Shown one piece after another: positions 162-13,498 of a DNA stretch of 64,000 bases. The notes beneath the pieces are model-generated. The model ran no database searches. It was not told where the DNA came from and saw nothing but the letters and a program-made list of their open reading frames with translations. The stretch spans positions 3,100,001-3,164,000 of the forward strand of contig NZ_CP151634.1 in the NCBI RefSeq assembly GCF_038397725.1, in the 5' to 3' direction. The translations under genes were made by a program, and so were the position numbers. The DNA comes from Microbacterium sp. LWO13-1.2 (GTDB lineage Bacteria > Actinomycetota > Actinomycetes > Actinomycetales > Microbacteriaceae). Numbering within the stretch: position 1 is the first letter of the stretch; every line of letters starts with the position of its first letter.

Positions 162-275
162 CGGCCGTCATCGCGACTGGTCGATTGGGTGCCCGAGATG
201 GATTCATTCCACTAGCAGCTGGCTCCTCTCCAATGCATTCACGGACACGCCACGCTCACCCGGTAAGGTGCGCGC

Positions 276-1031
276 GTGACCATCGATCGTTGGCAAGCTC
301 TCGGATTCGGCGCAGGAGTGCATCTCCTTCGCTTCGGGGTGATCGCGGGAGCACTCGCGCTCGCACCACTGCTGGGAATCTCAGGTTGGTACCTCGGGCT
401 CGCCGCAGACGTCGCCTGCGTTCTCCTTGCCGTCGTGCTCGTGACCGCACGCGGCCAGTGGTGCCGGTCTGGTCTGTTTTCGCTGTGGCGGGGGAGAACC
501 GCTGCCCTGTTCCTCATACCTTTCGTTGCCGAGTTGCTGCTGTGGGCGGTGCCGAGTGGTCTCGTCGAGCGTCCGCCCGGGTTCGGGCTCTGGGCACTCA
601 CTCTGCTCCTCGTCGGCGTGAACGAAGAACTCATCAGCCGCGTCGTCGTGCTGGAGCGTATGCGGAGCTCTTTCGGTCCCTTCGGCGCCGTCGCGCTCAC
701 CGGCGCCCTGTTCGGCCTGCAGCACCTCTCCGCGTTCGCCACCTCCGCACGCACGGTCGAGGATGTGCTCCTCAATGTTCTTGTCTCCGCGTGCTACGGC
801 ATCGGATTGGCAGCATTCCAGTACCGCTTCCGCTGGGTGCTTCCGCTGGTACTCCTGCACGCTGCCGTCGACTTCACGACGATCCTCTCCGCGAATCCGC
901 TGCCAGACCCCGCCGTCGCCGTCACTTGTCTCGCGTTCCTAGCGACCGCGGCGGTGATCCTGCGCCCGCTCGTCACCGACCGCGGTTCTTTCCGTCGTCG
1001 CCCCGCCGAATCCCGAACCGGGTCTTCCTGA
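276..1031 (+). CDS. CPBP-family intramembrane metalloprotease
   Basis: A 251-residue polytopic membrane protein starting at a GTG. It carries the hallmark motifs of the CPBP (CAAX protease/bacteriocin-processing, Abi) family: the paired glutamates E117-E118 with R122 in NEELISR, H150 in FGLQHLS, and H195/D199 in LLHAAVDF. These residues form the membrane-embedded active site of the family. About six to seven hydrophobic stretches span residues 12-220. Substrates of bacterial members are mostly unknown; roles in peptide processing or bacteriocin immunity are known for some relatives. It stands alone, with no peptide or bacteriocin gene beside it, so the job here is open. Confidence 0.8.
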   Translation: MTIDRWQALGFGAGVHLLRFGVIAGALALAPLLGISGWYLGLAADVACVLLAVVLVTARGQWCRSGLFSLWRGRTAALFLIPFVAELLLWAVPSGLVERPPGFGLWALTLLLVGVNEELISRVVVLERMRSSFGPFGAVALTGALFGLQHLSAFATSARTVEDVLLNVLVSACYGIGLAAFQYRFRWVLPLVLLHAAVDFTTILSANPLPDPAVAVTCLAFLATAAVILRPLVTDRGSFRRRPAESRTGSS

Positions 1032-1186
1032 CTGCTTCTACGAGGTCGGTGACAACGCCTGTGAAGTCGAGCCCCGCAGCAACCTGTGGAATGCAATCGG
1101 ATCTTTACTCCGGAAGCTCCGTGGGGGGGGTGCCAGCCACGCGATCACCCACAGCGATCTGCTCCACGTTCCAGGTCAACGCGCCA

Positions 1187-2005
1187 CTATCGGCTGATGA
1201 GCCTCATCAAGTGGCCGACCTGAGCTTCAGTTGTGCCAGGCGGGTTGCGGCGGAAAGCGCTGTTGCCGGGGAGGAGCATCGCCAACCAGAAGGCTGCCCA
1301 GAGCGGTCGGTATGCACGCATCCGCACTCGCTCTTCTTCTGACAAGCCGACAGCGGCGGTCAGCGCTTCGGCATCGAACACGCCATCGAGGCGAGCGGCA
1401 ATGTGCTCGACGTGATCGGCCAGGTCGTATGCCGGATCTGTGAGGCCACCGTCTTCGAAATCAACAAGGCGGCATGTACGACCATCCCAGAGGATATTCG
1501 CGGGGTTCAGATCCGCGATCCCGAGTGCCACGAGCCGCGGGTCTGGGAGTACATCGGGTCGAGCCAGCCATTCACGCGCGGCTTCGATTCCGTCCGCCAC
1601 CTGTAACGAATCCTGGCAGGGGGAGAGGTCGTAGGTGCTGCTCAGCCAGCCCGTAAGGGCATGAGGAAGCGACGACGGGCCGTAGCGGCGCTCTGTGATC
1701 CCCGCGGCCGCGATGTGCTCGACGGGAATGCTGTAAAGGCGCTGCAACGCCCGCCCCAGAGACACTGTCTGCTCTGATGTCAGCGGCGTGTGGCCGAGGG
1801 GCTCTCCAGCCAGCCGTTCCATGATCACAACCGGGTGCCCTTCGACGGTCTCTCGTCTCAGTGGTCGGGGAGTGATCCCGGGCGCGTGCTCCCAAATGAG
1901 GCGGAGACAGCTCCATTCACGATCAGCTTCTCCGTCGGCCCAATGCAGAAATCTCTTCCGGACCTCTGTGTCGCTGAAGCGCAGATCGTGAGTCCGAGAC
2001 GGCAT
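1187..2005 (-). CDS. Aminoglycoside phosphotransferase-like kinase
   Basis: A 272-residue protein of the APH/choline-kinase fold, starting at the ATG at 2005. An upstream extension of the frame would run antisense through the divergent GNAT gene and is not real. The family's catalytic loop is present as IADLNPANIL (about residues 163-172) with the catalytic Asp165 and Asn170, and the metal-binding DFE motif follows at 182-185. The usual His-Gly of the HGD motif is replaced by Ile-Ala, so activity or substrate may differ from true antibiotic kinases. The gene is divergent from the neighbouring GNAT with 72 bases between. Function is inferred from fold only. Confidence 0.75.
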   Translation of the reverse strand: MPSRTHDLRFSDTEVRKRFLHWADGEADREWSCLRLIWEHAPGITPRPLRRETVEGHPVVIMERLAGEPLGHTPLTSEQTVSLGRALQRLYSIPVEHIAAAGITERRYGPSSLPHALTGWLSSTYDLSPCQDSLQVADGIEAAREWLARPDVLPDPRLVALGIADLNPANILWDGRTCRLVDFEDGGLTDPAYDLADHVEHIAARLDGVFDAEALTAAVGLSEEERVRMRAYRPLWAAFWLAMLLPGNSAFRRNPPGTTEAQVGHLMRLISR

Positions 2006-2077
2006 GCCACACAGCCTATGGGGCTTGTAGGCGACTCTTTCAAAGAAGCGCCTGGCCAACCGAGATAGTGTCGCGGT

Positions 2078-2728
2078 ATGGAACTGGAAGAGATCTGGCC
2101 CCTGTTCGGGCTCGAGATCGCCACGCCGCGACTCGTGTTGCGACCCGTCCGAGACGACGACCTGCCGGAACTGCTGCAGGCCGCGCTCGACGGTGTGCAT
2201 GATCCCGAACGCACGCCTTTCAGCATCCCGTGGACCGATGCTGCTCCCAGCGAACTTCCGGGTAATCTCGCGTCTTTTCAGTGGAGCCTGCGCAACCGGG
2301 TCCATGCGCACAATTGGGCGATTGCGTTCGCTGTCCACTACGAAGGTCGCGTGGTGGGATCGCAGGACCTTTCCGCATACGACTTTGCGAATCGACGCAC
2401 TGTGAACACCGGGTCGTGGCTCACCAAGTCGGTGCATGGCCACGGCCTCGGGACCGAGATGCGTGCGGCGCTGTTGCTGTTCGCCTTTGACACGCTCGGT
2501 GCGGAGTGGGCCGAATCAGGCGCCGCGAGTTGGAACGAAGCGTCCCTCAAAGTCTCGAAGAAGCTCGGCTACGAGCTGAACGGTGTGACACGCGTCGCTC
2601 CGCGCCCGGGGGAGTCGGTCGACGAGCAACGAGTGCGCCTGGAGAAGAAGTCTTTCGTCCGGCCCGATTGGTCGATTTCCATTCGCGGCGCAGCGCCGGC
2701 CCTTGCCCAGTTGGGAATCCGCGGATAA
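2078..2728 (+). CDS. GNAT family N-acetyltransferase (RimJ/RimL type)
   Basis: A 216-residue GNAT acetyltransferase. The N-terminal TPRLVLRPVRDDDL (16-29) is the standard first strand of the RimJ/RimL group, and GHGLGTEMR (121-129) is the pyrophosphate-binding loop for acetyl-CoA. The later SWNEASLKVSKKLGYE carries the Asn-x-x-S signature. Members of this group acetylate protein N-termini or small amines; the acceptor cannot be read from sequence. It starts at the ATG at 2078, divergent from the APH-like gene, so the two could share a promoter region. A clear Shine-Dalgarno sequence is not obvious. The pairing of APH- and GNAT-fold genes resembles small-molecule modification sets, but that is inference. 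Confidence 0.82.
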   Translation: MELEEIWPLFGLEIATPRLVLRPVRDDDLPELLQAALDGVHDPERTPFSIPWTDAAPSELPGNLASFQWSLRNRVHAHNWAIAFAVHYEGRVVGSQDLSAYDFANRRTVNTGSWLTKSVHGHGLGTEMRAALLLFAFDTLGAEWAESGAASWNEASLKVSKKLGYELNGVTRVAPRPGESVDEQRVRLEKKSFVRPDWSISIRGAAPALAQLGIRG

Positions 2729-2755
2729 TCCTGCCGCAACTGCACCGCTATTTGA

Positions 2756-3238
2756 TCAGTCGAACGTGAACGGCATCCGGAGTGCACCTCTGAGCTGCAA
2801 AGCGAACGGTTCGCGCTCCGAAGGATCGACCCACCGTGCCTCCTCTTGTCGCTGATAGAGGCGATCGTCTGTGAAGCGCGGGAACACGTGCATATGAAGG
2901 TGCCACACATCCTGATTCCCGGCGGGCTCGTTGTGCTGTCGAGTCGACGTGCCCTCGCATCCGTAGGACGCGCGGATGCCGATCGCGACCCGCTGCGTCA
3001 GCTCCCACACCGCGTACCCGTCCGCTGATGACAGGTCGTAGATGTTCTCCACGTGCACCCGCGGAATGACGAGGACCGCCCCGGGATTATCTGGCCACCA
3101 CTTCGGAGCGATGCGAGCATAGGCGCGTTCCGTGACGGCAACGATGTCAGAGGGCTGGTTCTGTTCGTTGAAGATGCCTTGCTGGAGCAGACAGAACGGA
3201 CACGAGTAGCCGGCCGGCTCATGCGTAGTCGAAAGCAC
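2756..3238 (-). CDS. HIT-family nucleotide hydrolase/transferase
   Basis: A 160-residue protein of the histidine-triad superfamily. The triad HLHMHVF lies at residues 113-119, and the conserved strand AVLVIPRVHVENIYDL lies at 54-69. An early CPFC (13-16) resembles the zinc-binding pair of many HIT proteins. HIT proteins cleave nucleoside phosphoramidates or related nucleotide conjugates. The frame starts at a GTG at 3238; no strong ribosome-binding site is visible, so the start is moderately certain. Its stop is 27 bases from the end of the convergent GNAT gene, and no terminator stands between them. Confidence 0.85.
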   Translation of the reverse strand: MLSTTHEPAGYSCPFCLLQQGIFNEQNQPSDIVAVTERAYARIAPKWWPDNPGAVLVIPRVHVENIYDLSSADGYAVWELTQRVAIGIRASYGCEGTSTRQHNEPAGNQDVWHLHMHVFPRFTDDRLYQRQEEARWVDPSEREPFALQLRGALRMPFTFD

Positions 3239-3377
3239 ACACGATCATCCCACGGAGGGGGAGTGGCACCTCGGCTTCTCGTGGTGACCTGGCGCAATCG
3301 GGGCCGGCATACTCGATTCGATGCATCAGTGGATGTCGCGCTGACCGCGAGTGCGGACCCGCAGCTAGCCTTCTTCT

Positions 3378-4016
3378 ATGCGCATCGTGGTTGACGCGAG
3401 TGACACAATGGCCCGCCTCGGCCAGGTTGCGATCTGGTCGTTCGAGCTTGAGGCGTGGGGGGAGTGTGCTCAAGCTGCCACGGAGGAAGAAGCTCGCTCC
3501 CGCTTCGCGAGACGGGCCAGAATTGCACCTGAGGTTCTTGAGGTGCAAGAGCGAATCACTGGAGCTACGGCCGTCTTCGCTAACGATCTGCTCCCTGGAA
3601 AAGATGCGCAGATTTCACGGACCGTCCAGATCATTGACGCGCAACGGATCCTCACGCTCGCGCTGCTGAACGCCGCTACCGACGAAGAGTTGGATATGCA
3701 CGATCCCGCAGTGAAGCAGCCCGCATGGATGGCTTGGCGCACGCCGGGGGAGATACTTCGGCATATCGCCGACACCGAAGCACGCGCCTATCCGCGATGG
3801 TGTGGGCTGGCGCAGCTGGAGCCCATCGATGACCTTCGCGAGGAGCTCGCTCGCTCCTCACGTCATATCCGCGAGATCGTCCACACCATGCCGAGGACGT
3901 TTCGAAACGAGCATCGCGGCGAAATGTGGACTCCAGTCAAGCTTCTTCGCCGCCTGGCCTGGCACGAACGCATCGAGCTGGTTTTCTTGCGTCGACGTCT
4001 GCAGCAGCTTCGTTGA
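3378..4016 (+). CDS. DinB-fold protein with HicB-like N-terminal domain
   Basis: A 212-residue protein with two parts. Residues 1-55 look like the HicB-type beta-alpha fold (FELEAWGECAQAATEEEARS), in which a substrate-like strand is followed by a helix. From about residue 85 onward there are helices typical of DinB-like metal-binding bundles, with LRHIADTEARAYPRW and RRLAWHERIEL supplying the first and third family histidines. DinB-fold proteins include thiol-dependent S-transferases and many damage-induced proteins of unknown role. A HicB-like head fused to a DinB bundle occurs in other actinobacteria, but its job is unknown. Start at ATG 3378 has no clear ribosome-binding site. Confidence 0.65.
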   Translation: MRIVVDASDTMARLGQVAIWSFELEAWGECAQAATEEEARSRFARRARIAPEVLEVQERITGATAVFANDLLPGKDAQISRTVQIIDAQRILTLALLNAATDEELDMHDPAVKQPAWMAWRTPGEILRHIADTEARAYPRWCGLAQLEPIDDLREELARSSRHIREIVHTMPRTFRNEHRGEMWTPVKLLRRLAWHERIELVFLRRRLQQLR

Positions 4017-4199
4017 CGGCTCATCGGTTCGGCGATTAGAACTGCGGCCAAATCCTCCGAGCTACCAGCTACCGATGCATCAGCGGAGATCGCTATGGTT
4101 GCTTGCATGGCGATCGTTTCGGTGTATCTCGACGGCTCTGGAGTGAGCCCTCGGCGCGCGCATCGCTGATCCCAGACACACGGCACACCCCAGAGCCCC

Positions 4200-4233
4200 A
4201 AGGTGAAGACCATCCGGTCTTCACCTTTCTTGC
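4200..4233 (+). terminator. Perfect 12-bp terminator hairpin in the tyrS leader
   Basis: The arms AAGGTGAAGACC (4200-4211) and GGTCTTCACCTT (4216-4227) pair perfectly around the loop ATCC and run into a T-rich TTTCTT tail. It lies 183 bases after the DinB-fold gene and 58-90 bases before tyrS, so it may simply end the upstream transcript or act as an attenuator for tyrS. No T-box core and no Tyr-rich leader peptide could be seen in 4017-4290. Confidence 0.75.
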
Positions 4234-4290
4234 GTTCGACGCGAGCGGGGTCTGCTGGGAGTTCTCGCTCACAGATCGAGGGAGAATTCC

Positions 4291-5496
4291 ATGACCACAC
4301 CTGACCAAGTGCTCGACCGACTGAGCCGCACGACTGAGCAGATCTTCGGCCGTGAAGACCTGCTGGAACGGCTCTCCCGCGGGAGGCCGCTCCGGATCAA
4401 GTTCGGCGTCGATTGCACTGCGCCCGACCTGCATCTCGGCCACGCAGTGAATCTCTGGATGATGCGGTACCTGCAGGATCTCGGTCACGTCGTCGTCTTC
4501 CTTCTCGGCGACACCACGACCCGAGTCGGCGACCCCACCGGCCGCAGCAGCACCCGCCCCGTGCTCACCACGGACCAGATCGAACGAAATGCTCAGGCAT
4601 TCCTCGATCAGGTGAGCCTCGTCCTGCGACATGAGCCGGACGTGCTCGAGATCCGTCGCAACTCGGAGTGGTACGACTCCATGTCGATCAGCGACTTGAT
4701 CGGCGAACTGAGCCTTGTCACACACAGTCAGCTGATGGCCCGCGACATGTTCCAGAAGCGGGTCGAGGAGCGCCGTGAGATCGCGATGCACGAGTTGGTC
4801 TACCCGGTGCTGCAGGGCTTCGACAGCGTGGCGCTGCAATCGGATCTGACGATCGTCGGCTCCGATCAACTTTTCAACGAGAACATGGGGCGAGAGCTTC
4901 AGGTGAAGCACGGCCAGCGGCCACAGACCGTCATCACAAGCACCATCACTCCGGGTCTCGATGGGGGCCCAAAGCAATCGAAGTCGTTGGGAAACTACGT
5001 CGGGCTCGCGCAGGTGGCGGACGACAAGTTCGGACGACTGATGACCTTGAACGACGATCTCATCGGCGTATGGGCGAAGGTTTACACCGAACTGCCGCTG
5101 GCCGTCGTAAGCGAACTTGCCCAACGATCCGGCCTCGGTGGCGTGGACGCTCGCAACGCCAAGCTGGACCTTGCGGAGGCGATCGTTGCGCGCCACCATG
5201 GCGTCTCGGAGGCTGAGCGAGCGCGGCGTACGTTTCTCGAGGTGTTCTCAGAGCGCGCGTTTCCCGACGGGATGCCGCAACTCGATGTGCTCCACCATGC
5301 GACCGTACTTCAGCTCGTGGAGGCTGCGCGTCCTGAGCTCACACGGTCAGGTGCGCGGAGACTCATCGCCGAAGGAGGCGTACGGATCAATGGTGTGAAG
5401 CGGCTCGATGGCGAAGAACTCGTGTCTGTGGGAGCCGAGGATGTGCTCCAGGCTGGGCGACGACGCTGGTTCAGGCTGGCTGTGCACGGTGGTTGA
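4291..5496 (+). CDS. tyrS: Tyrosine--tRNA ligase
   Basis: A 401-residue class I aminoacyl-tRNA synthetase that charges tRNA-Tyr with tyrosine. HLGH (48-51) is the HIGH motif, KQSKS (228-232) the KMSKS motif, and YPVLQGFD (171-178) supplies the Tyr, Gln and Asp that recognise the tyrosine substrate. A C-terminal S4-like RNA-binding segment (SGARRLIAEGGVRINGVK) closes the protein. The KMSKS form and the setting among accessory genes resemble the TyrZ-like type, which many bacteria carry as a second, regulated or inhibitor-tolerant copy. Whether a main copy exists elsewhere cannot be seen here. The leader contains a strong terminator hairpin. RBS GAGGGAG precedes the ATG. Confidence 0.95.
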   Translation: MTTPDQVLDRLSRTTEQIFGREDLLERLSRGRPLRIKFGVDCTAPDLHLGHAVNLWMMRYLQDLGHVVVFLLGDTTTRVGDPTGRSSTRPVLTTDQIERNAQAFLDQVSLVLRHEPDVLEIRRNSEWYDSMSISDLIGELSLVTHSQLMARDMFQKRVEERREIAMHELVYPVLQGFDSVALQSDLTIVGSDQLFNENMGRELQVKHGQRPQTVITSTITPGLDGGPKQSKSLGNYVGLAQVADDKFGRLMTLNDDLIGVWAKVYTELPLAVVSELAQRSGLGGVDARNAKLDLAEAIVARHHGVSEAERARRTFLEVFSERAFPDGMPQLDVLHHATVLQLVEAARPELTRSGARRLIAEGGVRINGVKRLDGEELVSVGAEDVLQAGRRRWFRLAVHGG

Positions 5497-5857
5497 TGCA
5501 GACCAGGAAAGGCAGAGAGCGCGGCTTCTCATCGCAACCGGGGGAGGAGCCGCTCGTGTTCTCTTCGCGTGCTCGTGGTTTTCCATCGCAGAGTCCGTCC
5601 AGCAACTGGAAGCGAAATCACGCAGCCGTCGCCTTGAGAACGCCCTGCGGCAAGTTCTCACGGCGACCGCCACAGATTATTTCTCCAACGAATGTGCTGA
5701 GGTCAGAAGCGAGAGACGCCGTTTCGAACGACGGTTTCCGTCGCCGCCCATCCGATCCCAGATCTGCTTCACCCGCGTGCGCCAACCGCAAGATCCACTC
5801 CGGAGGGGAGTCGCGCCATCCGGCGTACGCGCCTCCAGAGCGGGTCGACATTCCTCG

Positions 5858-5885
5858 AGCTGACATAATGTGCATTATCGGCTAC
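5858..5885 (+). other. dif: Chromosomal dif site (XerC/XerD recombination site)
   Basis: The core TGACATAATGTGCATTATCG matches the reverse complement of the actinobacterial dif consensus as remembered (TTCRCCGATAAT-VN-ACATTATGTCAAGT), with mismatches confined to the outer two or three bases of each side. ACATAATGT and ATTATCGG are the two recombinase-binding arms and flank the 6-base centre. XerC/XerD with FtsK resolve chromosome dimers here, so it marks the replication terminus. It sits in the only gap over 300 bases in the window (5497-5930). Nothing else was recognised in that gap; short frames through it have no RBS and no family resemblance. Confidence 0.85.
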
Positions 5886-5930
5886 AACCCGATACGGTGC
5901 GGCAGCTGCAACGCGTCCCTGAAAGCAACC

Positions 5931-7019
5931 TCAGCGGCGGCCATAGAGATGATCGCGAAGAACGCTCATGGCTTCCGAGGCGGTGCTCGCCCCAGGGACA
6001 GCTTCTCTGCCGGCGACGAAGATCACATCGTCATGATCCGCGTAGACAGACCATTCGGCCGAGAACACATCGTTGCCGCCGTCGTGCCAGTAAAAGCGGC
6101 CAATGCCCGCGACGTCCTGAACGACCAGCCCATAGCCATAGAAACTCGTGCCGGAAGCGTCCTCTGCAATGTGAGGATGCAGGAGCTGTTCCAAAGATGA
6201 TTCGGAAACGACTTTTCCATTAAGAAGGGCCTGGAGGAAACCCAAGAAGTTCTCGGCGGTCGTGATCAGTCCGCCGTTGCCGATGAGGTGCCATGACGCA
6301 TCGTGACCTCCCCAGCTGGCGTCGATGACGCCCTTTCCTTCCGTGGATCGAAGCGAGCGTCCGTCGTCATAGGACGACAAGTAACCGATGCTGTCCAGCC
6401 CTGCCGGCGCCAGTACCTCGTCGCGTAGGTATTGCTCGTACGATAGGCCGCTGCGCACTTCGATGATGGCAGCGAGTATCGAGTAACCGACGTTGGAATA
6501 GGCGTATTGCGTACCAGGAGTCTCGACGAGTGGAGATGCGAATGCTCGCTGGAGAAACTCGTCTCTGTTGATCTCCTCGGCGTCGTCACCGACGGATTCG
6601 GTGAAGCCGCCGGCATGAGTAAGAAGCTGCTCGACCGTGATCATCGCTTTGTCACTGGGTACCTCGTGAAAGATGTCCGAAAGCGTCTCGTCGAAGCGCA
6701 CTCCGGACTGTTCGACAAGTTTCGAGACCGCCACCGCTGTCACCGTCTTGGTGATCGACCCGATGTCGACGAGAGACTTCTCGGGAGCCACGGCGTCATC
6801 TCGAAGCGCACCGAACTCTCGCACGACCGCGGGCGCTCCGTCGTGGGAAAAGGCCACGATCACGGGTGCCATCTCACGCTCGAGGACGTCGAAAGCCGCG
6901 GCGAGCCGGTCGTTCGTCGTCGAGGGCAGCGCCTCGTCAGGCTCGCGCTCGGCGCTACTGCAGCCGGCAATCGACAGCACCAGAGCGACGCTGGAGAGGG
7001 CACAGAGCAGTCGACGCAC
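5931..7019 (-). CDS. Lipoprotein serine hydrolase, beta-lactamase class C family
   Basis: A 362-residue exported serine hydrolase of the class C beta-lactamase/DD-peptidase group. The signal peptide ends in a lipobox, LSIAGC, with the lipidated Cys20, so it should be anchored outside the membrane. Family motifs are all present: SITK (88-91, the nucleophile Ser and its Lys), YSN (174-176) and HDGG (313-316, in place of KTG). Family members act as carboxypeptidases, esterases or beta-lactamases; the HDG form is common in esterase-like members. It lies directly beside the dif site and downstream of the UvrA-like gene on the same strand, with 137 bases between, so probably has its own promoter. 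Confidence 0.85.
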   Translation of the reverse strand: MRRLLCALSSVALVLSIAGCSSAEREPDEALPSTTNDRLAAAFDVLEREMAPVIVAFSHDGAPAVVREFGALRDDAVAPEKSLVDIGSITKTVTAVAVSKLVEQSGVRFDETLSDIFHEVPSDKAMITVEQLLTHAGGFTESVGDDAEEINRDEFLQRAFASPLVETPGTQYAYSNVGYSILAAIIEVRSGLSYEQYLRDEVLAPAGLDSIGYLSSYDDGRSLRSTEGKGVIDASWGGHDASWHLIGNGGLITTAENFLGFLQALLNGKVVSESSLEQLLHPHIAEDASGTSFYGYGLVVQDVAGIGRFYWHDGGNDVFSAEWSVYADHDDVIFVAGREAVPGASTASEAMSVLRDHLYGRR

Positions 7020-7156
7020 GTCTCGACGTTAGAAGAGACCAGGCCGCGCCGCGACCTTTCAAAGGGAACCGAGAACATCCTGTGGGCGGGGCCACAGGAC
7101 CGATCCGGCCGGCAACTCCCCCGCCCGTGCCCACAACGCCATGTCCACGCTCCTGG

Positions 7157-9514
7157 TTACGAGCTGACGTACTCCGCCAGATGCTCCCCCGTCAGCGTCG
7201 ATCGATCCGCCACGAGCTCTGCCGGAGTCCCCTCGAAGACGACACGCCCGCCGTCGTGACCGGCCCCCGGTCCGATGTCGATGATCCAATCGGCGTGCGC
7301 CATGACAGCCTGGTGATGCTCGATGACGATCACGGTCTTGCCGGAGTCGACGAGGTGATCCAGCAAACCGAGGATCTTCTCCACATCGGCCAGGTGCAGA
7401 CCGGTCGTGGGCTCGTCGAGTACGTATACATCGCCCTTCTCCCCCATCTGGATCGCCAGCTTGATGCGCTGACGTTCTCCTCCGGACAGGGTCGACAGCG
7501 GCTGGCCGAGCGATAGATAGCCGAGCCCGACGTCTTCGAGCCGACCGAGAATCGCCGCGGCCGCTGGAATCTTCGCCTCCCCTTCCGAGAAGAACCCGCG
7601 GGCTTCTGACACCGGCAGATCCAGGACCTCGGTGATGTCGCGCCCTGCCAGCTTGTACTCGAGCACGCCCGCCTGGAAGCGCTTGCCTCCGCAGTCCTCA
7701 CAGGGTGTCTCGATGGTGTCCATGAAACCGAGTTCGGTGATGATGACGCCAGCGCCCTTGCAACTCGGGCATGCGCCCTCGGAGTTCGCGCTGAACAGTG
7801 CCGGCTTCACGCCGTTCGCCTTCGCGAAGGCCTTTCGGATCGGCTCGAGCAGCCCCGTGTACGTGGCCGGGTTGCTGCGCCGCGAGCCCTTGATCGCGCC
7901 CTGGTCGATCGACACGACACCCTCGCGCTTCGAGACGGAGCCGTGGATGAGCGAGCTCTTCCCTGAGCCGGCCACTCCGGTCACGACCGTCAGCACGCCC
8001 AGGGGGATGTCGACATCGACGTCCTGGAGATTGTTCGCCGTGGCGCCGCGCACCTCGATCGCACCGTCGCCGGTGCGGACCTCTGCCTTGATCGCAGCAC
8101 GATCTTCCAGATGGTTGCCCGTGAGTGTGCCACTGGCCTTGAGTCCGGCGACGTCGCCCTCGAAGCAGATCGTTCCGCCGCGGCTTCCGGCGCCGGGACC
8201 GAGGTCGACGACGTGATCCCCGATCGCGATCGTCTCTGGCTTGTGCTCGACGACCAACACGGTGTTGCCCTTGTCCCGCAACTTCAGCAGCAGCGAGTTC
8301 ATCCGCTGGATGTCATGCGGGTGCAGCCCGATCGTCGGCTCGTCGAAGACGTAAGTGATGTCGGTCAGCGACGAACCCAGATGACGCAGCATCTTGATGC
8401 GCTGCGCCTCTCCCCCGGACAGAGTGCCTGACGGCCGGTCGAGGCTGAGATATCCGAGTCCGAGAGTCACGAATGCGTCGAGGTTCGCGCTCAACGCCTG
8501 CAGCAGAGGCGCCGCCTCGGGAAGCTTCAACCCACGCACCCACACGGCGAGATCGGTCACCTGCATCCGGCAGGCATCCGCGATGCTCACCCCGTCGATC
8601 TTCGACGATCGCGCTCCTTCAGTGAGCCGAGTCCCGTCGCATTCAGGGCAGACGGCGAACGTCGCGACGCGCTGCACGAAAGCGCGGATGTGGGGCTGCA
8701 AAGCGTCGATGTCCTTCGAGAGCATCGATTTCGTGATCTTCGGGATCAGGCCCTCATAGGTCATGTTGATCCCGGAGATCTTGACTTTGGTGACCTCGCC
8801 GTAGAGGAACAGATGGCGCTGCTTCTCGGTGAAATCGGCGATCGGCTTGTCGGCGGGATAGAAGCCGGAGGCCGAGAACCCCTTCACCATCCAGCCGTCC
8901 GCTGTGTATCCGGGGACCATGATGGCGCCGTCGTCCAGCGACTTCGATTCGTCGACGATCTGTGCCAGATCGAGATCGGAGACCGCTCCCCTGCCCTCGC
9001 ATCGCGGGCACATGCCGCCGAGATAGATGGCGTCCTTGACGATCTTCTTCTCGCCGCCGGGCCCCGTCATCACACCGCTCGCTCTTTGCGTGGGGATGTT
9101 GAAGGAGAACGCCGTCGGTCCACCGATATACGGATGCCCGAGCTTGCTGAACAGGATGCGCAGCATCGCGTTCGCGTCGGTCACCGTGCCGACCGTCGAA
9201 CGCGGGTTCGCGCCGAGACGCTCCTGATCGACGATGATCGCGGTCGTCAGCCCCTCCAGCACATCGACATCCGGACGCGGCACCGACGGCATGAACCCCT
9301 GGACGAAGGCGCTGTACGTCTCGTCGATCATCCGTCGCGACTCCGCGGCGATGGTGTCGAAGACGAGTGAGCTCTTCCCCGACCCTGATACCCCCGTGAA
9401 CACGGTGAGCCGCCGCTTCGGGATATCGACGCTGATGTCCTTCAAGTTGTTCTCGCGCGCACCCTGCACACGGATCAGGTCATGGGTATCGGCTGCATGG
9501 GCGGCAGAGCTCAT
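7157..9514 (-). CDS. UvrA-like excinuclease ATPase (short, drug-resistance type)
   Basis: A 785-residue paralogue of UvrA, shorter than the about 950-residue housekeeping UvrA. Two ABC units are visible: Walker A motifs GVSGSGKSS (41-49) and GVAGSGKSS (513-521), ABC signatures LSGGE at 365-369 and again near 700, and Zn-binding pairs CPRC (169-172) and CPEC (289-292). Such short UvrA-like proteins (DrrC-like) are linked to resistance against DNA-intercalating drugs or unknown DNA adducts. A good RBS (AAGGA) precedes the ATG. It follows a VOC gene and an AraC regulator on the same strand by 36 bases, so the three probably form one operon. Confidence 0.88.
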
Positions 9515-9550
9515 CAGTGTCCTTCGGGGTTCGAGAGTGAGAGGGGAAGG

Positions 9551-9970
9551 TCAGGCGGTCTGATTGATGCGGAGCAGGTTTCCCGCAGGATCGCGGAATG
9601 CGCAGTCACGGACACCATAAGGCTGTTCCATCGGCTCCTGAACGACGTCGGCGCCCTTCTCGACGAGGCGTTCGAACAGGGCATCCAGATCGTCACTTGC
9701 CAGCGTCAGCGCCGAGTAGCTCCCCTTGGCGATGAGCTCGAGAATCGTCTGACGCTCAGCGTCGGTGATTCCCGGGTCCGTTGCCGGTGGATGCAGGACG
9801 ATCGATGTGTCGGGCTGCCCCTCGGGGCCGACGGTCAGCCAGCGCAGGCCGTCATAACCGACGTCGTTGCGCACCTCGAACCCGAGGGCGTCGCGATAGA
9901 AAGCGAGCGCAGCCTCGGCATCGGTGTGCGGGAGAAATGCGTAATGGATGCTGATATTCATGGTGTTCAC
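9551..9970 (-). CDS. VOC superfamily (glyoxalase/bleomycin-resistance fold) protein
   Basis: A 139-residue one-domain VOC protein: HYAFLPHTDAEAALAFYRDAL near the N-terminus and DPAGNLLRINQ at the C-terminus are the usual first and last strands, with a paired beta-alpha-beta arrangement between. VOC proteins bind a metal or a small molecule; members act as glyoxalases, dioxygenases or drug-sequestering resistance proteins. The start overlaps the stop of the AraC gene by four bases (ATGA), so translation is likely coupled; a second in-frame ATG three codons later is possible. Downstream is the UvrA-like ATPase. Confidence 0.82.
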   Translation of the reverse strand: MNTMNISIHYAFLPHTDAEAALAFYRDALGFEVRNDVGYDGLRWLTVGPEGQPDTSIVLHPPATDPGITDAERQTILELIAKGSYSALTLASDDLDALFERLVEKGADVVQEPMEQPYGVRDCAFRDPAGNLLRINQTA

Positions 9971-10407
9971 ACTATGTTCGCGTCGGTGCGGGGCGCTTCT
10001 TGATTCCTGATCGGTCGGATGACCTGCTTCGCCTGGAACGTCGGGATCCCGTCCACGTTGGCGGCGCGTTCACGGTACACGCTGGGTGAGACACCGACCA
10101 GTTCGGTGAATCGGGTGCTGAAGGTGCCGAGCGATGAGCATCCGACCTCGAAGCACACGTCGGTGACGCTCAGATCGCCGCGTCGCAGCAACGCCATGGC
10201 CCGCTCGATACGTCTGGTCATGAGATAGGAGTATGGCGACTCGCCGTAGGCCTCACGGAACTTCCGACTCAGATGCCCCGCCGACATATGCACGCCCCTC
10301 GCCAGAGCCTCCACGTCGAGCGGACGCGCGTAGTCCCGATCGATTCGATCACGCACCTTCCGCATGACCGCGAGTTCACGGAGTCGGGCATCGTCGACAG
10401 GTGTCAC
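9967..10407 (-). CDS. AraC-family transcriptional regulator, DNA-binding domain only
   Basis: About 146 residues, from a GTG at 10407 with AGGA seven bases upstream; a longer frame from a TTG lacks an RBS. The whole protein is the two helix-turn-helix domain of AraC/XylS regulators: VEALARGVHMSAGHLSRKF is the first HTH, and VTDVCFEVGCSSLGTFSTRF with GVSPSVYRER the second. No ligand-binding domain is present, so it resembles SoxS/MarA-like regulators whose activity is set by their level. It is the first gene of the operon with VOC and UvrA-like genes and probably controls them and itself. The divergent HdeD-like gene shares the 136-base upstream region. Confidence 0.85.
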   Translation of the reverse strand: MTPVDDARLRELAVMRKVRDRIDRDYARPLDVEALARGVHMSAGHLSRKFREAYGESPYSYLMTRRIERAMALLRRGDLSVTDVCFEVGCSSLGTFSTRFTELVGVSPSVYRERAANVDGIPTFQAKQVIRPIRNQEAPRTDANIV

Positions 10408-10543
10408 GAATCGATCCTGGCACGCACAGGCGTCTCCGCCTATGACGTCTTGCAACGCCCCGAGACGACCACTCCCCTGTTCTTGGCCCTTTCGGCGCTA
10501 CGCTGAGGCCAACCTCACAGGATGTTCTCAGAAAGGGCCCAAA

Positions 10544-11098
10544 ATGTCCGAATCATTCACGGAAGCGCGGTCGGCTCTCAAGTCGATCCGCATCACGCTC
10601 GCGATCTCCGGCGCACTTGCACTGATCGCCGGCCTCGTGCTCCTGATCTGGCCGGTGAAGTCGGCGGTCATCATCACCGGGATCTTCGCCTCGTACCTGA
10701 TCATCGCCGGACTCGTCTACGTCGGGATCGGCATCTTCTCCGGCAACAAGGGATGGGCGCGTATCGGGCACCTCGTGCTCGGACTGCTGTACATCGTCGC
10801 GGGCGTCATCGCCTTCACGAACCTCACCGCGGCCGCAGCGAGCCTGGCGATCATCGTCGTGATCTTCATCGGCATCAGCTGGATCGTGGACGGAGTCGTC
10901 TCCCTCACGCTGCTCGGTCAGGACGGCTCCCGAGTCTGGACGCTGCTCTACGCGCTTCTGAGCGTCGTGGCCGGCATCGCCGTCCTCACGCTCGGGTTCG
11001 CAGCCGTGCCGCTCTTCTGGCTGCTCCTTGCCGCTTCTCTGATCGCGCTCGGCATCGTGCAGATCGTTCGCGCGATCACCCTCGGCAAGTCGGCGTAA
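10544..11098 (+). CDS. HdeD/DUF308-family membrane protein
   Basis: A 184-residue protein almost entirely made of hydrophobic helices, six in number, arranged as three repeats with the YLIIAGLVYVGIGIF-type pattern of DUF308/HdeD proteins. In enterobacteria HdeD is linked to acid resistance; in actinobacteria the role is unknown. The chosen ATG at 10544 has a good RBS (AGAAAGGG) and leaves out a longer frame that would run antisense into the AraC gene. It is monocistronic, followed by a clear terminator, and divergent from the araC-VOC-uvrA operon. Confidence 0.8.
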   Translation: MSESFTEARSALKSIRITLAISGALALIAGLVLLIWPVKSAVIITGIFASYLIIAGLVYVGIGIFSGNKGWARIGHLVLGLLYIVAGVIAFTNLTAAAASLAIIVVIFIGISWIVDGVVSLTLLGQDGSRVWTLLYALLSVVAGIAVLTLGFAAVPLFWLLLAASLIALGIVQIVRAITLGKSA

Positions 11099-11114
11099 CA
11101 GCCCCTGCGACGCG

Positions 11115-11160
11115 AATCGGCCCCGTTCTGCACAACAGCAGACCGGGGCCGATTCCGTTG
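11115..11160 (+). terminator. Rho-independent terminator after the HdeD-like gene
   Basis: The arms AATCGGCCCCG (11115-11125) and CGGGGCCGATT (11144-11154) form an 11-bp stem followed by CCGTTG. The stem starts 17 bases after the stop codon. It can also serve the convergent SDR gene, whose stop is at 11195. Confidence 0.7.
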
Positions 11161-11194
11161 CCGATCAGCTTGGCGCCGGTCGGTGGCGTTCAGT

Positions 11195-11959
11195 TCACTC
11201 AGCCGCGAACGCGCTCACATCGCCGACGAGGCGCGTGTTGTCGGCCGGCACAGGATCGACGGCCGCCTGCGCGACCTCGGCCGCGAACTCGGAGACGTTG
11301 TAGAGCTTGCCGGCCGATTCGCGCCGCTCGGCGATGGCGCCAGGATTGGCGCGCTCGAGAAGCGTGGCCGTGATCGTGCCTTCGATCATGTCGCCGGAGA
11401 CGACCGTGAAGCCGACGCCCTTCTCGGCGAGGCCAGGGATGAGCTCGCGCAGTGCGTCTTCTCCGGCACGCTTGGAGAGCGCGACCGGCTCGTATTCCGG
11501 CATGGTCGGCGTCGTCCGGATGAAATGAGCCTGGTGGCTGGTCACGAAGACCACACGGGCGCCATCACCCAGAAGCGGGAGCGCGGCGTTCAGCACGTTG
11601 AGCTGAGCATCGCGATTGAGCGTCAGCGCGTAGTCCTCGGCCATGCCGGATTCCATGCCACCGGACGCGTTGAGCACGAGGATGTCGAGACTCCCGAACT
11701 CCTCGCGTACCGCGTCGAACATGTCGGAGACGGATGCGGGATCGGTGAGGTCGGCGGCCACGGTGAGGACGCGCCGCCCGAGAGCGCGCAGTTCGACGGC
11801 GAGCTTCTCAGCGCGCGGCGCCTTGTTGCGGAAGTTGATGACGACATCGGCGCCCGCTTCCGCGAGATACCGGATGGTGTCGGCGCCGATCCCCCGGGAT
11901 GATCCGGTGACAAGAGCGACCTTGCCGTCGAGGGAACCTGCGGGGAGAAGCTCGGTCAC
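11195..11959 (-). CDS. Short-chain dehydrogenase/reductase (SDR)
   Basis: A 254-residue Rossmann-fold oxidoreductase. TGSSRGIG (about 18-25) is the cofactor-binding glycine motif, NASGG the structural NAG-like motif, and the active-site region holds Ser in VTSHQAHF and a downstream Y-x-x-x-K-equivalent YEPVALSK (Tyr to Lys spaced by six, not three). That last spacing is unusual, so catalytic competence is less certain. A cofactor preference for NADP(H) is suggested by SSRG plus the basic residue after it. The GTG at 11959 has AAGGAG at good spacing and is preferred over an ATG 12 codons upstream. Substrate unknown. Confidence 0.82.
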   Translation of the reverse strand: MTELLPAGSLDGKVALVTGSSRGIGADTIRYLAEAGADVVINFRNKAPRAEKLAVELRALGRRVLTVAADLTDPASVSDMFDAVREEFGSLDILVLNASGGMESGMAEDYALTLNRDAQLNVLNAALPLLGDGARVVFVTSHQAHFIRTTPTMPEYEPVALSKRAGEDALRELIPGLAEKGVGFTVVSGDMIEGTITATLLERANPGAIAERRESAGKLYNVSEFAAEVAQAAVDPVPADNTRLVGDVSAFAAE

Positions 11960-12079
11960 GGTGACTCCTTGTGATGCGTGAGACGCCGCGATCACGCGAC
12001 ATCCTCACACTATCAATCCCCGCTCCCGACACCCGATCCGAGCCAGGGCGCGTGATAGGTTGACCGCAAAGGAGAGCGC

Positions 12080-12553
12080 ATGGACACTTTCGCCACATTC
12101 GTTCAGTTCATCGACCAGTGGGCATGGATCGGCTGGCTCGTCCTGATCGCCGCTTTCCTGGTGATCGAGATGCTGACACTCGATTTCACCTTCCTGATGC
12201 TGAGTTTCGGCAGCGCGATCGGTCTCGTCACCGATCTCGTCGGGGTTCCGGTGTGGGTGCAGGTGATCATCGCTGCCGCAGCTGCCGCGATCTTCATCCT
12301 CTTCCTGCGTCCGCCGCTGCTCAAGCGCCTTCGTCGCGGCGAGGACCCGACCAAATCGAACGTCGACGCCCTCATCGACCTCCGTGGCATCGCGCTGCAT
12401 GAGATCACGCAGGTATCGGGACAGGTGAAGCTGAGCAACGGCGACACCTGGACCGCACGAACCCCCGCCGGTGTGCCCATTCCGCAGGGCGCGACGATCG
12501 CGATCACCGCGGTCAGCGGCGCGACCGCCATCGTCCGACCCGTCAACGACTAG
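12080..12553 (+). CDS. NfeD-family membrane protein
   Basis: A 157-residue NfeD-like protein. The N-terminal half has three membrane helices (WAWIGWLVLIAAFLVIEM, an LSFG-containing helix and a third ending at LRPPLLKRL), and the C-terminal half is the OB-fold domain (GQVKLSNGDTWTAR ... VSGATAIVRPV). NfeD proteins pair with SPFH/stomatin proteins in flotillin-like membrane assemblies. The gene is 9 bases upstream of the SPFH gene, with AAAGGAGAG before its ATG, and starts a three-gene operon. The short form without the ClpP-like protease part is the common one beside stomatins. Confidence 0.88.
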   Translation: MDTFATFVQFIDQWAWIGWLVLIAAFLVIEMLTLDFTFLMLSFGSAIGLVTDLVGVPVWVQVIIAAAAAAIFILFLRPPLLKRLRRGEDPTKSNVDALIDLRGIALHEITQVSGQVKLSNGDTWTARTPAGVPIPQGATIAITAVSGATAIVRPVND

Positions 12554-12562
12554 GAGACTTCA

Positions 12563-13498
12563 GTGAACGATTCCTCGTTCATCCCGACCGCGATCCTCTG
12601 GATCCTGGTGGTCGCGATCATCATCTTCGTGGTGGTGACCATCGCCCGATCGATCCGGATCATCCCGCAGGCGACTGCGGGAGTCGTCGAGCGGCTCGGC
12701 CGGTACCACAAGACCCTGATGCCCGGTCTGAACATCCTGGTGCCCTTCATCGATCGCCTCCGCCCGCTTATCGACATGCGTGAGCAGGTCGTCTCATTCC
12801 CTCCGCAGCCGGTGATCACGGAAGACAACCTCGTCGTCTCGATCGACACGGTCGTGTACTTCCAGGTGACGGATGCTCGAGCGGCGACCTACGAGATCGC
12901 GAACTACCTCGGCGCCGTCGAGCAGCTCACGACCACCACGCTCCGCAACGTCGTCGGTGGTCTGAACCTCGAAGAGGCGCTCACGAGCCGCGACAACATC
13001 AACGGCCAGCTGCGCGTCGTCCTCGATGAGGCCACGGGCAAGTGGGGAATCCGCGTCGGCCGCGTCGAGCTCAAGGCGATCGACCCGCCCCTGTCCATTC
13101 AGGACTCGATGGAGAAGCAGATGCGCGCCGAGCGTGACCGCCGCGCCGCCATCCTGACGGCCGAGGGAACCAAGCAGTCCGCGATCCTCGAGGCTGAGGG
13201 CGCACGGCAGGCAGAGATCCTCCGCGCCGAAGGTGACAAGCAGGCCGCTGTCCTCCGCGCTCAGGGAGAGGCGGAGGCGATTCAGAACGTCTTCACCGCC
13301 ATCCACCAGGGCGCTCCGGACGACAAGCTGCTCGCGTATCAGTACCTGCAGATGCTGCCGAAGATCAGCGAGGGCCAGTCCAACAAGCTGTGGATCATCC
13401 CGAGTGAGCTCACCGAGGCGCTCAAGGGCATCGGCACCGCTTTCACGCCGCGTCCCGGATCCGGCCAGCCGCCGACCAGCCCACCTCCGGGCGTGTGA
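12563..13498 (+). CDS. SPFH/stomatin-family membrane protein (QmcA-like)
   Basis: A 311-residue SPFH-domain protein starting at a GTG preceded by AGGAG. One N-terminal membrane helix (about 8-28) is followed by the SPFH core (GVVERLGRYHKTLMPGLNIL) and a long coiled-coil with repeated AEG/EAEGA units (ILTAEGTKQSAILEAEGARQ onward to about 240). A Pro-rich tail closes the protein. Stomatin-like proteins form large membrane rings that scaffold proteases or organise lipid domains. It is translated from the same mRNA as the NfeD partner and overlaps the GDPD gene by four bases. Confidence 0.92.
   Translation: MNDSSFIPTAILWILVVAIIIFVVVTIARSIRIIPQATAGVVERLGRYHKTLMPGLNILVPFIDRLRPLIDMREQVVSFPPQPVITEDNLVVSIDTVVYFQVTDARAATYEIANYLGAVEQLTTTTLRNVVGGLNLEEALTSRDNINGQLRVVLDEATGKWGIRVGRVELKAIDPPLSIQDSMEKQMRAERDRRAAILTAEGTKQSAILEAEGARQAEILRAEGDKQAAVLRAQGEAEAIQNVFTAIHQGAPDDKLLAYQYLQMLPKISEGQSNKLWIIPSELTEALKGIGTAFTPRPGSGQPPTSPPPGV

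Follow-up and report, generated by a model that had tools for sequence, protein, structure and literature searches.

Kono et al. 2011 (PMC3025954, partial text) described the closest counterpart of the present locus, giving the dif of Frankia alni and predicting exactly one dif in every single-chromosome actinobacterium of the set (66 of 66). In that account xerC lies mostly near dif, and replication ends near dif and not at it; the same distinction between a replication and a segregation terminus was drawn for other bacteria in a 2026 study (PMC13342612, partial text). Among the sequences that guide FtsK, the KOPS of E. coli and Vibrio, GGGNAGGG (PMC13342612 and PMC5357621, partial texts), is G-rich, lies on the leading strand, becomes denser near dif and flips at dif. 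Lactococcus has an atypical KOPS, an A-rich heptamer, together with a divergent gamma domain (Nolivos et al. 2012, via PMC5357621). Architecture Imparting Sequences are strand-biased octamers selected towards the terminus, Actinobacteria included, and the available part of their description (PMC5993296) names no actinobacterial motif and ties none to FtsK. The main text of the Xer review PMC5357621 holds no word starting with Actino, Mycobacter or Streptomyces, and two actinobacterial FtsK papers, in their accessible portions, mention KOPS without an actinobacterial motif. Finally, dif is where filamentous phages such as CTXphi, XacF1 and others integrate via the host XerCD (partial texts), and the main text of Roux et al. 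2019 (PMC6813254), as far as available, names neither dif nor Actinobacteria.

We analysed a window of 64,000 nucleotides (bases 3,100,001-3,164,000 of the single 4,008,377-bp contig of Microbacterium sp. LWO13-1.2), in which a first-pass annotation had proposed a chromosomal dif. The dif itself is an ordinary, expected landmark of a known kind, and the new part is mainly the signposts around it, copies of the heptamer GGGGGAG that converge on the site from both sides (Table 1). As the best explanation of the locus as a whole, we consider it very probable that 5858-5885 is dif, with FtsK reading GGGGGAG and XerCD resolving chromosome dimers.

Table 1. Features of the dif region (positions in the window; offsets in bases from dif).
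Feature	Position	Strand	Remarks
dif, 28 bp, 11+6+11: AGCTGACATAA TGTGCA TTATCGGCTAC	5858..5885	+	genome 3105858-3105885
Putative XerD-binding arm	5858..5868	+	reverse complement TTATGTCAGCT; assigned by resemblance to proteobacterial dif
Central region TGTGCA, 6 bp, predicted strand-exchange region	5869..5874	+	most variable part between lineages
Putative XerC-binding arm	5875..5885	+	reverse complement GTAGCCGATAA; assigned by resemblance
Second left GGGGGAG, toward dif	3746..3752	+	offset -2125
Nearest left GGGGGAG, toward dif	5540..5546	+	offset -331
Nearest right GGGGGAG, toward dif	7116..7122	-	offset +1245
Second right GGGGGAG, toward dif	7184..7190	-	offset +1313
tyrS, tyrosyl-tRNA synthetase (TIGR00234)	4291..5496	+	3' end facing dif; context only
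Serine hydrolase, beta-lactamase fold (PF00144)	5931..7019	-	3' end facing dif; context only
UvrA-like ABC protein	7157..9514	-	most conserved of seven neighbours tested

The dif site and its place on the chromosome

The core proposed by the annotation, TGACATAATGTGCATTATCG, is present, exact, at window positions 5861-5880. A search of the window allowing three mismatches finds this one copy, and 100 dinucleotide shuffles hold no match; its inner 14-mer, with at most one mismatch, occurs once in the whole contig, in which the reversed control of that 14-mer has no occurrence. The single copy that had been expected of a true dif is what the 4.01-Mb chromosome holds, and several equal copies did not occur. 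The inner part, ATAA-TGTGCA-TTAT, has inner arms inverted around a 6-bp centre, which is the layout of dif; the two arms are assigned to XerD and XerC by their resemblance to proteobacterial dif. The reverse complement of the F. alni dif (PMC3025954) is identical to the site at 23 of 28 bases, including 22 bases, TGACATAATGTGCATTATCGGC, unbroken, and the layout, the single copy and the location in the terminus half are also alike, the difference being in the outer arm bases.

The core is kept in relatives. With up to three mismatches it was found in 54 of 57 related genomes, once in 52 of them and with a second, weaker match, which we ignored, in two (G025 and G053); the other three had no match at this threshold. 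Of 97 other genomes taken from the class, some of them common to both samples, 78 had a looser core and 19 had no match to it. Genomes of other classes matched the dif pattern in 9 of 72 cases, and the reversed control matched in two, so that part of these nine may be noise. No match to the looser core was present in any of the nine genomes of family f33, genus g48 (7.1-9.9 Mb), and likewise in ten genomes of other families (f24, f29, f31, f32, f45). We infer that f33 corresponds to the streptomycetes. Streptomycetes have linear chromosomes, for which no dimer resolution is needed.

The site lies in a gap of 434 bases between the convergent tyrS and serine hydrolase genes. The claim that dif explains an AT-rich patch holds only in part: the 28-mer has 43% GC in a gap of 61% GC, but the lowest-GC 20-mers of the window are found away from dif, at 5674 (same gap), 6206 and 9942. 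Synteny was rejected as support for dif: of 40 relatives, none has tyrS within 10 kb of the site and one has the serine hydrolase there. None of the left-flank genes tested (185, 1187 with a phosphotransferase fold, 3378 and tyrS) has a counterpart within 10 kb of dif in the 40 relatives, so this flank (185-5496) looks recently acquired. On the other side, 12 of 20 congeners and 7 of 20 genomes of other families have the gene for the UvrA-like ABC protein no more than 10 kb from dif.

One could think of 5858-5885 as a dif-like attachment site left by a mobile element, a phage or plasmid using the host XerCD, and not as the chromosome's own dif, since viral contigs and actinobacterial plasmids carry such sites and filamentous prophages sit at dif in other actinobacteria. 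We regard this as highly improbable, given that the site has a single copy in the genome, that it is opposite dnaA, that in a Pfam scan of the ten ORFs in window 185-13498 none matches a phage family (four match no family at all), and that the polarity of GGGGGAG flips exactly there.

The position on the circle agrees with the chromosome's own dif. The dnaA gene is at 1,039,069-1,039,554, and the distance from it to dif is 0.484 of the circle; all 15 one-contig genomes, our own included, fall between 0.375 and 0.497 (median 0.482). The annotation had gone further, proposing that dif pinpoints the replication terminus, with a turn of GC skew within a few kb of 5870 as the check. This needs qualifying: dif is near the point opposite dnaA (~3.044 Mb), but the cumulative skew over the contiguous 400 kb around dif peaks at 3,037,908, ~6 kb from that point and 68 kb from dif, a distance equal to 1.7% of the chromosome. 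This turning point is imprecise because the skew is weak: among 60 sampled 20-kb stretches, which add up to 1.2 Mb or 30% of the chromosome, 57 have a skew below 0.04 and 49 have the expected sign (26/29 on one arm, 23/31 on the other). GC skew was too weak to place the turn and was dropped as the main locating test, polar motifs being used instead. On a 4-Mb circle we do not count 68 kb as far, so the offset is not a refutation of dif and, with so weak a skew, should not be pressed; motifs and skew disagree, the motifs side with dif, and we take dif to be the point where segregation converges. A replication fork trap (Ter-like) site would also be expected near the terminus, but we regard it as highly improbable at 5858-5885, where the sequence is that of an 11-6-11 dif and the local skew turn, weak as the skew is, is 68 kb away. 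A chromosomal dif, in single copy, approximately opposite dnaA, kept in relatives and with FtsK-type polar motifs flipping at it, is thus the reading of the annotation that we retain, and these sequence features support 5858-5885 as the probable XerCD target for chromosome dimer resolution.

Polarity of GGGGGAG in the Microbacterium chromosome

Octamers were ranked for how strongly they favour the leading strand, the arms being set by dnaA and dif; the ranking used 36 stretches that keep clear of dnaA and lie over 200 kb from dif. The top octamer, CGGGGGAG, has a bias of 85 to 0; it may be among those listed by Hendrickson and Lawrence 2006 and by Nolivos 2012. The heptamer within it, GGGGGAG, points to dif in 136 of 137 copies within ~200 kb (contiguous 400 kb), and a freely fitted change point separates 68 to 0 on the left from 1 to 68 on the right, which puts the flip between -331 and +1245 bases of dif. 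Over all 60 sampled stretches 275 copies point toward dif and 20 away, and the 295 copies observed compare with 107 expected under an order-2 Markov model. The density of copies pointing to dif rises from 2.9 to 6.8 per 20 kb on approach to it, and 16 of the 20 wrong-way copies are 1.3-2.0 Mb from dif, where the polarity is weaker (53:16). An 11-mer containing GGGGGAG points to dif in 30 of 30 copies over the whole chromosome.

The bias depends on the order of the bases, four scrambles in the same genome being weaker (GGAGGGG 34:12, GGGGAGG 41:15, GAGGGGG 27:15, GGGAGGG 28:17). It is lost with substitutions at the five inner positions of the heptamer and kept with some substitutions of the first or last G (11:0, 10:2, 13:1, 12:1), so the exact motif is not settled. 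GGGGGAG has in this way the properties expected of a KOPS-like sequence, being biased to dif, flipping at dif and rising in density towards it, and like the KOPS it is G-rich and on the leading strand; it has only the GGGNAG part in common with GGGNAGGG, which in the same 400 kb has a ratio of 34:13 as against 136:1 and shows no strong polarity. The Lactococcus heptamer is GAAGAAG. Known guides were tried and rejected for weak or no bias: besides the E. coli KOPS (34:13), these were the B. subtilis SRS (12:5) and the Lactococcus motif (76:70).

The neighbouring tyrS and serine hydrolase genes are rarely near dif in relatives, and the motif flip is therefore not simply inherited along with them. 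Kono et al. (PMC3025954, partial text) set dif positions against GC skew, whereas here the polar motifs place dif much more sharply. The dif of actinobacterial genomes can then be located by the motif flip, with a precision far beyond that of GC skew.

GGGGGAG in other genomes and FtsK as its candidate reader

The same polarity was found in 80 relatives, in which 814 copies of GGGGGAG point toward dif and 20 away. Forty genomes of the same order (20 congeners and 20 of 16 other families) contribute 430 toward and 7 away, and 40 further genomes (38 of 17 other class families, one of the own family and one of another class) contribute 384 and 13. Each genome was read for at most ten kb to either side of dif, including where a contig end shortened the stretch, and the sample was made up of 40 fetched of the 54 relatives with the core, 39 of the 78 other class matches and one other-class genome of 16 matches, chosen mainly by room on the contig and family spread and not by motif. 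Polarity is weakest in family f32 (57:9 in six genomes) and holds at 42-52% GC, with 24:0 in family f37 and 7:0 in a genome of 42% GC (G149). Ranked against all heptamers, GGGGGAG heads the list in 9 of the 19 family groups among the 40 further genomes, takes second or third place in 4 more and falls below fourth place in 6, of which five are single genomes and the sixth is f32. Scrambles in the 40 further genomes reach 82:50, 68:53 and 84:45. A genome of 9.17 Mb (G071, family f33) gave no dif match, yet its copies of the 11-mer containing GGGGGAG are oriented outward, 58 out of 60, on either side of a divide in the middle of the chromosome, at 4.19 to 4.37 Mb, and these 60 copies compare with 34 of the reversed control, about twice as frequent; motif polarity is thus kept where dif seems absent.

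GGGGGAG could be a leading-strand motif of another kind and not a guide for FtsK: it might act as a Chi-like recombination signal, mark gene starts, or reflect a strand bias of replication or mutation. In favour of such a motif is the bias across the chromosome of G071, where dif seems absent and the motif is only about twice as frequent as its reversed control. We nevertheless consider it unlikely, since the polarity flips within ~1.6 kb at dif with the density rising toward it, scrambles of equal composition are far less biased, a bias of 99% is far above the weak GC skew, and the polarity holds at 42% GC (7:0 in G149); a gene-start signal, moreover, would follow gene direction.

A guide for FtsK, which we prefer, has a candidate reader in the same genome. 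One FtsK with a gamma domain is encoded, and this domain aligns with chains 2j5o and 2ve8/2ve9, which we take to be Pseudomonas FtsK-gamma, 2ve9 being with KOPS DNA. The gamma helix is VGFAKAGRLMD in our FtsK and IGYNRAARMIE in 2j5o and 2ve8/2ve9. In 20 of 21 gamma domains from 16 families (our own and 20 fetched) the helix is identical, the other having one K to R change, and three fetched f32 genomes have the same helix despite the weaker polarity of that family. The contacts of the E. coli protein with KOPS are N1296, R1300 and E1303; their equivalents in our FtsK would presumably be A, R and D. A changed helix together with a changed motif is as co-evolution predicts, and this comparison of sequences would be compatible with it without being proof.

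By analogy with KOPS, we read GGGGGAG as the probable actinobacterial KOPS, the FtsK guide. In its full form, which we judge to be probably correct, this hypothesis holds that GGGGGAG is the KOPS of Actinobacteria, one guide across the class (in 20-kb stretches of 42% to 78% GC) and in one genome of another class, that it is read by the differing VGFAKAGRLMD helix, and that, being kept in the 9.17-Mb genome without a dif match, it has a role that extends beyond dimer resolution to the pumping of chromosomes at large. Lactococcus offers a parallel (Nolivos et al. 2012, via PMC5357621, partial text), with a lineage-specific guide and a divergent gamma domain, the guide being an A-rich heptamer there and GGGGGAG here. 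The strand-biased octamers of the Architecture Imparting Sequences (PMC5993296, partial text), selected towards the terminus, resemble GGGGGAG as well. The converging arrows look like a segregation code common to related bacteria; among the hits listed from the open-licence literature we found no printed description of it, and the papers found there for GGGGGAG together with FtsK were unrelated. The flip yields in this way a concrete candidate FtsK guide sequence for a large bacterial group.

The recombinase genes are also encoded. XerD scores 342.4 against an NCBIfam cut-off of 329.6, and for the XerC candidate the best family is XerC, with a score of 310.8, below the cut-off of 335.15. The XerC candidate is 90 kb from dif. 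At genome positions 3195860-3198807, also 90 kb from dif, this candidate and another tyrosine recombinase are 1.9 kb apart on opposite strands. We hypothesise that recombination between sister chromosomes would produce a dimer, which septal FtsK would pump, reading GGGGGAG as arrows to dif from both arms; where the two dif copies meet, the FtsK gamma domain would activate XerD, and the XerC/XerD pair, bound to the site, would exchange strands in the 6-bp centre, giving two monomers.

Filamentous phages and other mobile elements at dif

An exact dif core was found in two viral contigs, L039 (4704-4731) and L040 (104-131). The replication protein of L039 is just under the Pfam Rep_1 cut-off and resembles that of Propionibacterium phage B5, among others, and L040 has one over the REP_ORF2-G2P cut-off. 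Each contig encodes an ATPase of family phrog_20922, that of L040 also matching Pfam Zot, the name of filamentous-phage assembly ATPases. The last 971 bases of L039 are the first 971 of L040, which places one dif between two facing filamentous-phage gene sets, and all four copies of GGGGGAG in the two contigs point to their dif.

The ATPase family is present in 1 of 394 genomes of the class, and this one genome, an Actinomycetota metagenome bin (G081), holds a filamentous prophage of ~7.5 kb with dif at one end and, at the other, a half site that has 17 bases in common with it (L173 4941-12460, G081:C113:17236-24755); its replication protein is identical to that of JAVEDI010000061.1. A second prophage, of ~8.4 kb, was found in a Nocardioidaceae bin (L212 2687-11065), flanked by a half site and by dif, which are 8.35 kb apart with 18 common bases, and GGGGGAG flips across its dif end. 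The half common to both sites is, in L173 and in L212, the presumed XerC arm with the centre. A half site also lies in the end of a phage replication gene, near the contig end, in Bifidobacterium merycicum DSM 6492 (L237 1-4570).

Filamentous prophages at dif are therefore present in two actinobacterial genomes (L173, L212) and probably in a third, L237 being only probable because the whole 18-mer has five mismatches, which is chance level, and the other phage end is beyond the contig. Like CTXphi, XacF1 and others, which integrate at dif via the host XerCD (partial texts), the L173 and L212 prophages sit between dif and a copied half site; here, as a difference, they reside in Actinobacteria, and their replication genes resemble that of phage B5, among others. 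These prophages make dif a docking place for filamentous phages in Gram-positive hosts. To our knowledge, few filamentous phages have been described for such hosts. A second contig end of B. merycicum (L247) has a related replication gene and a poor dif-like site with 5 mismatches; all 5 and 8 copies of GGGGGAG in L237 and L247 point to these contig ends, and the dif of B. merycicum may lie between them.

This kind of replication gene was found at 79 loci, 29 of them judged actinobacterial by title; among these, full sites were noted at two loci, a half site at L237 and no such site at the other 26. Phage B5 was rejected as a dif phage, having no dif-like site within 5 mismatches, and among 18 further contigs similar to the L039 replication protein none had a dif match with up to three mismatches and one had a match with 4. 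As 7 of 150 mononucleotide shuffles reached four or fewer mismatches, two of them with 2 or 3, matches of this kind carry little weight by themselves. Matches to dif in 42 phage records, with E-values from 0.07 to 10, were taken as chance; many of them fall within coding genes of Aeromonas and Pseudomonas phages, and three rows are microviruses.

In five Flavobacterium loci (L208, L214, L217, L220 and L234, near 9770) and in Lacinutrix (L211, at 9707), a dif-like site with 2-3 mismatches to the proteobacterial core lies ~210-280 bases from the matched part of the replication gene. The viral contig L104 has two dif-like sites of the same orientation, at 6083 (1 mismatch) and 9938 (3 mismatches), separated by 3.85 kb, with three ORFs, related by eye, within the pair and a flip of GGGGGAG at the first site. 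Three more viral contigs, L105, L106 and L108, carry a site of actinobacterial pattern with 2 mismatches to our core, L105 together with a terminase. L106 and L108 have the site region in common and are tailed-phage-like by eye, one presumed terminase tested giving no Pfam match; the four GGGGGAG beside their site all point toward it. Dif-like stretches occur also in eleven plasmid records (H16-H26), 8 of the 11 rows having E-values above 1, and a 465-kb Microbacterium plasmid among them has 22 bases identical to dif.
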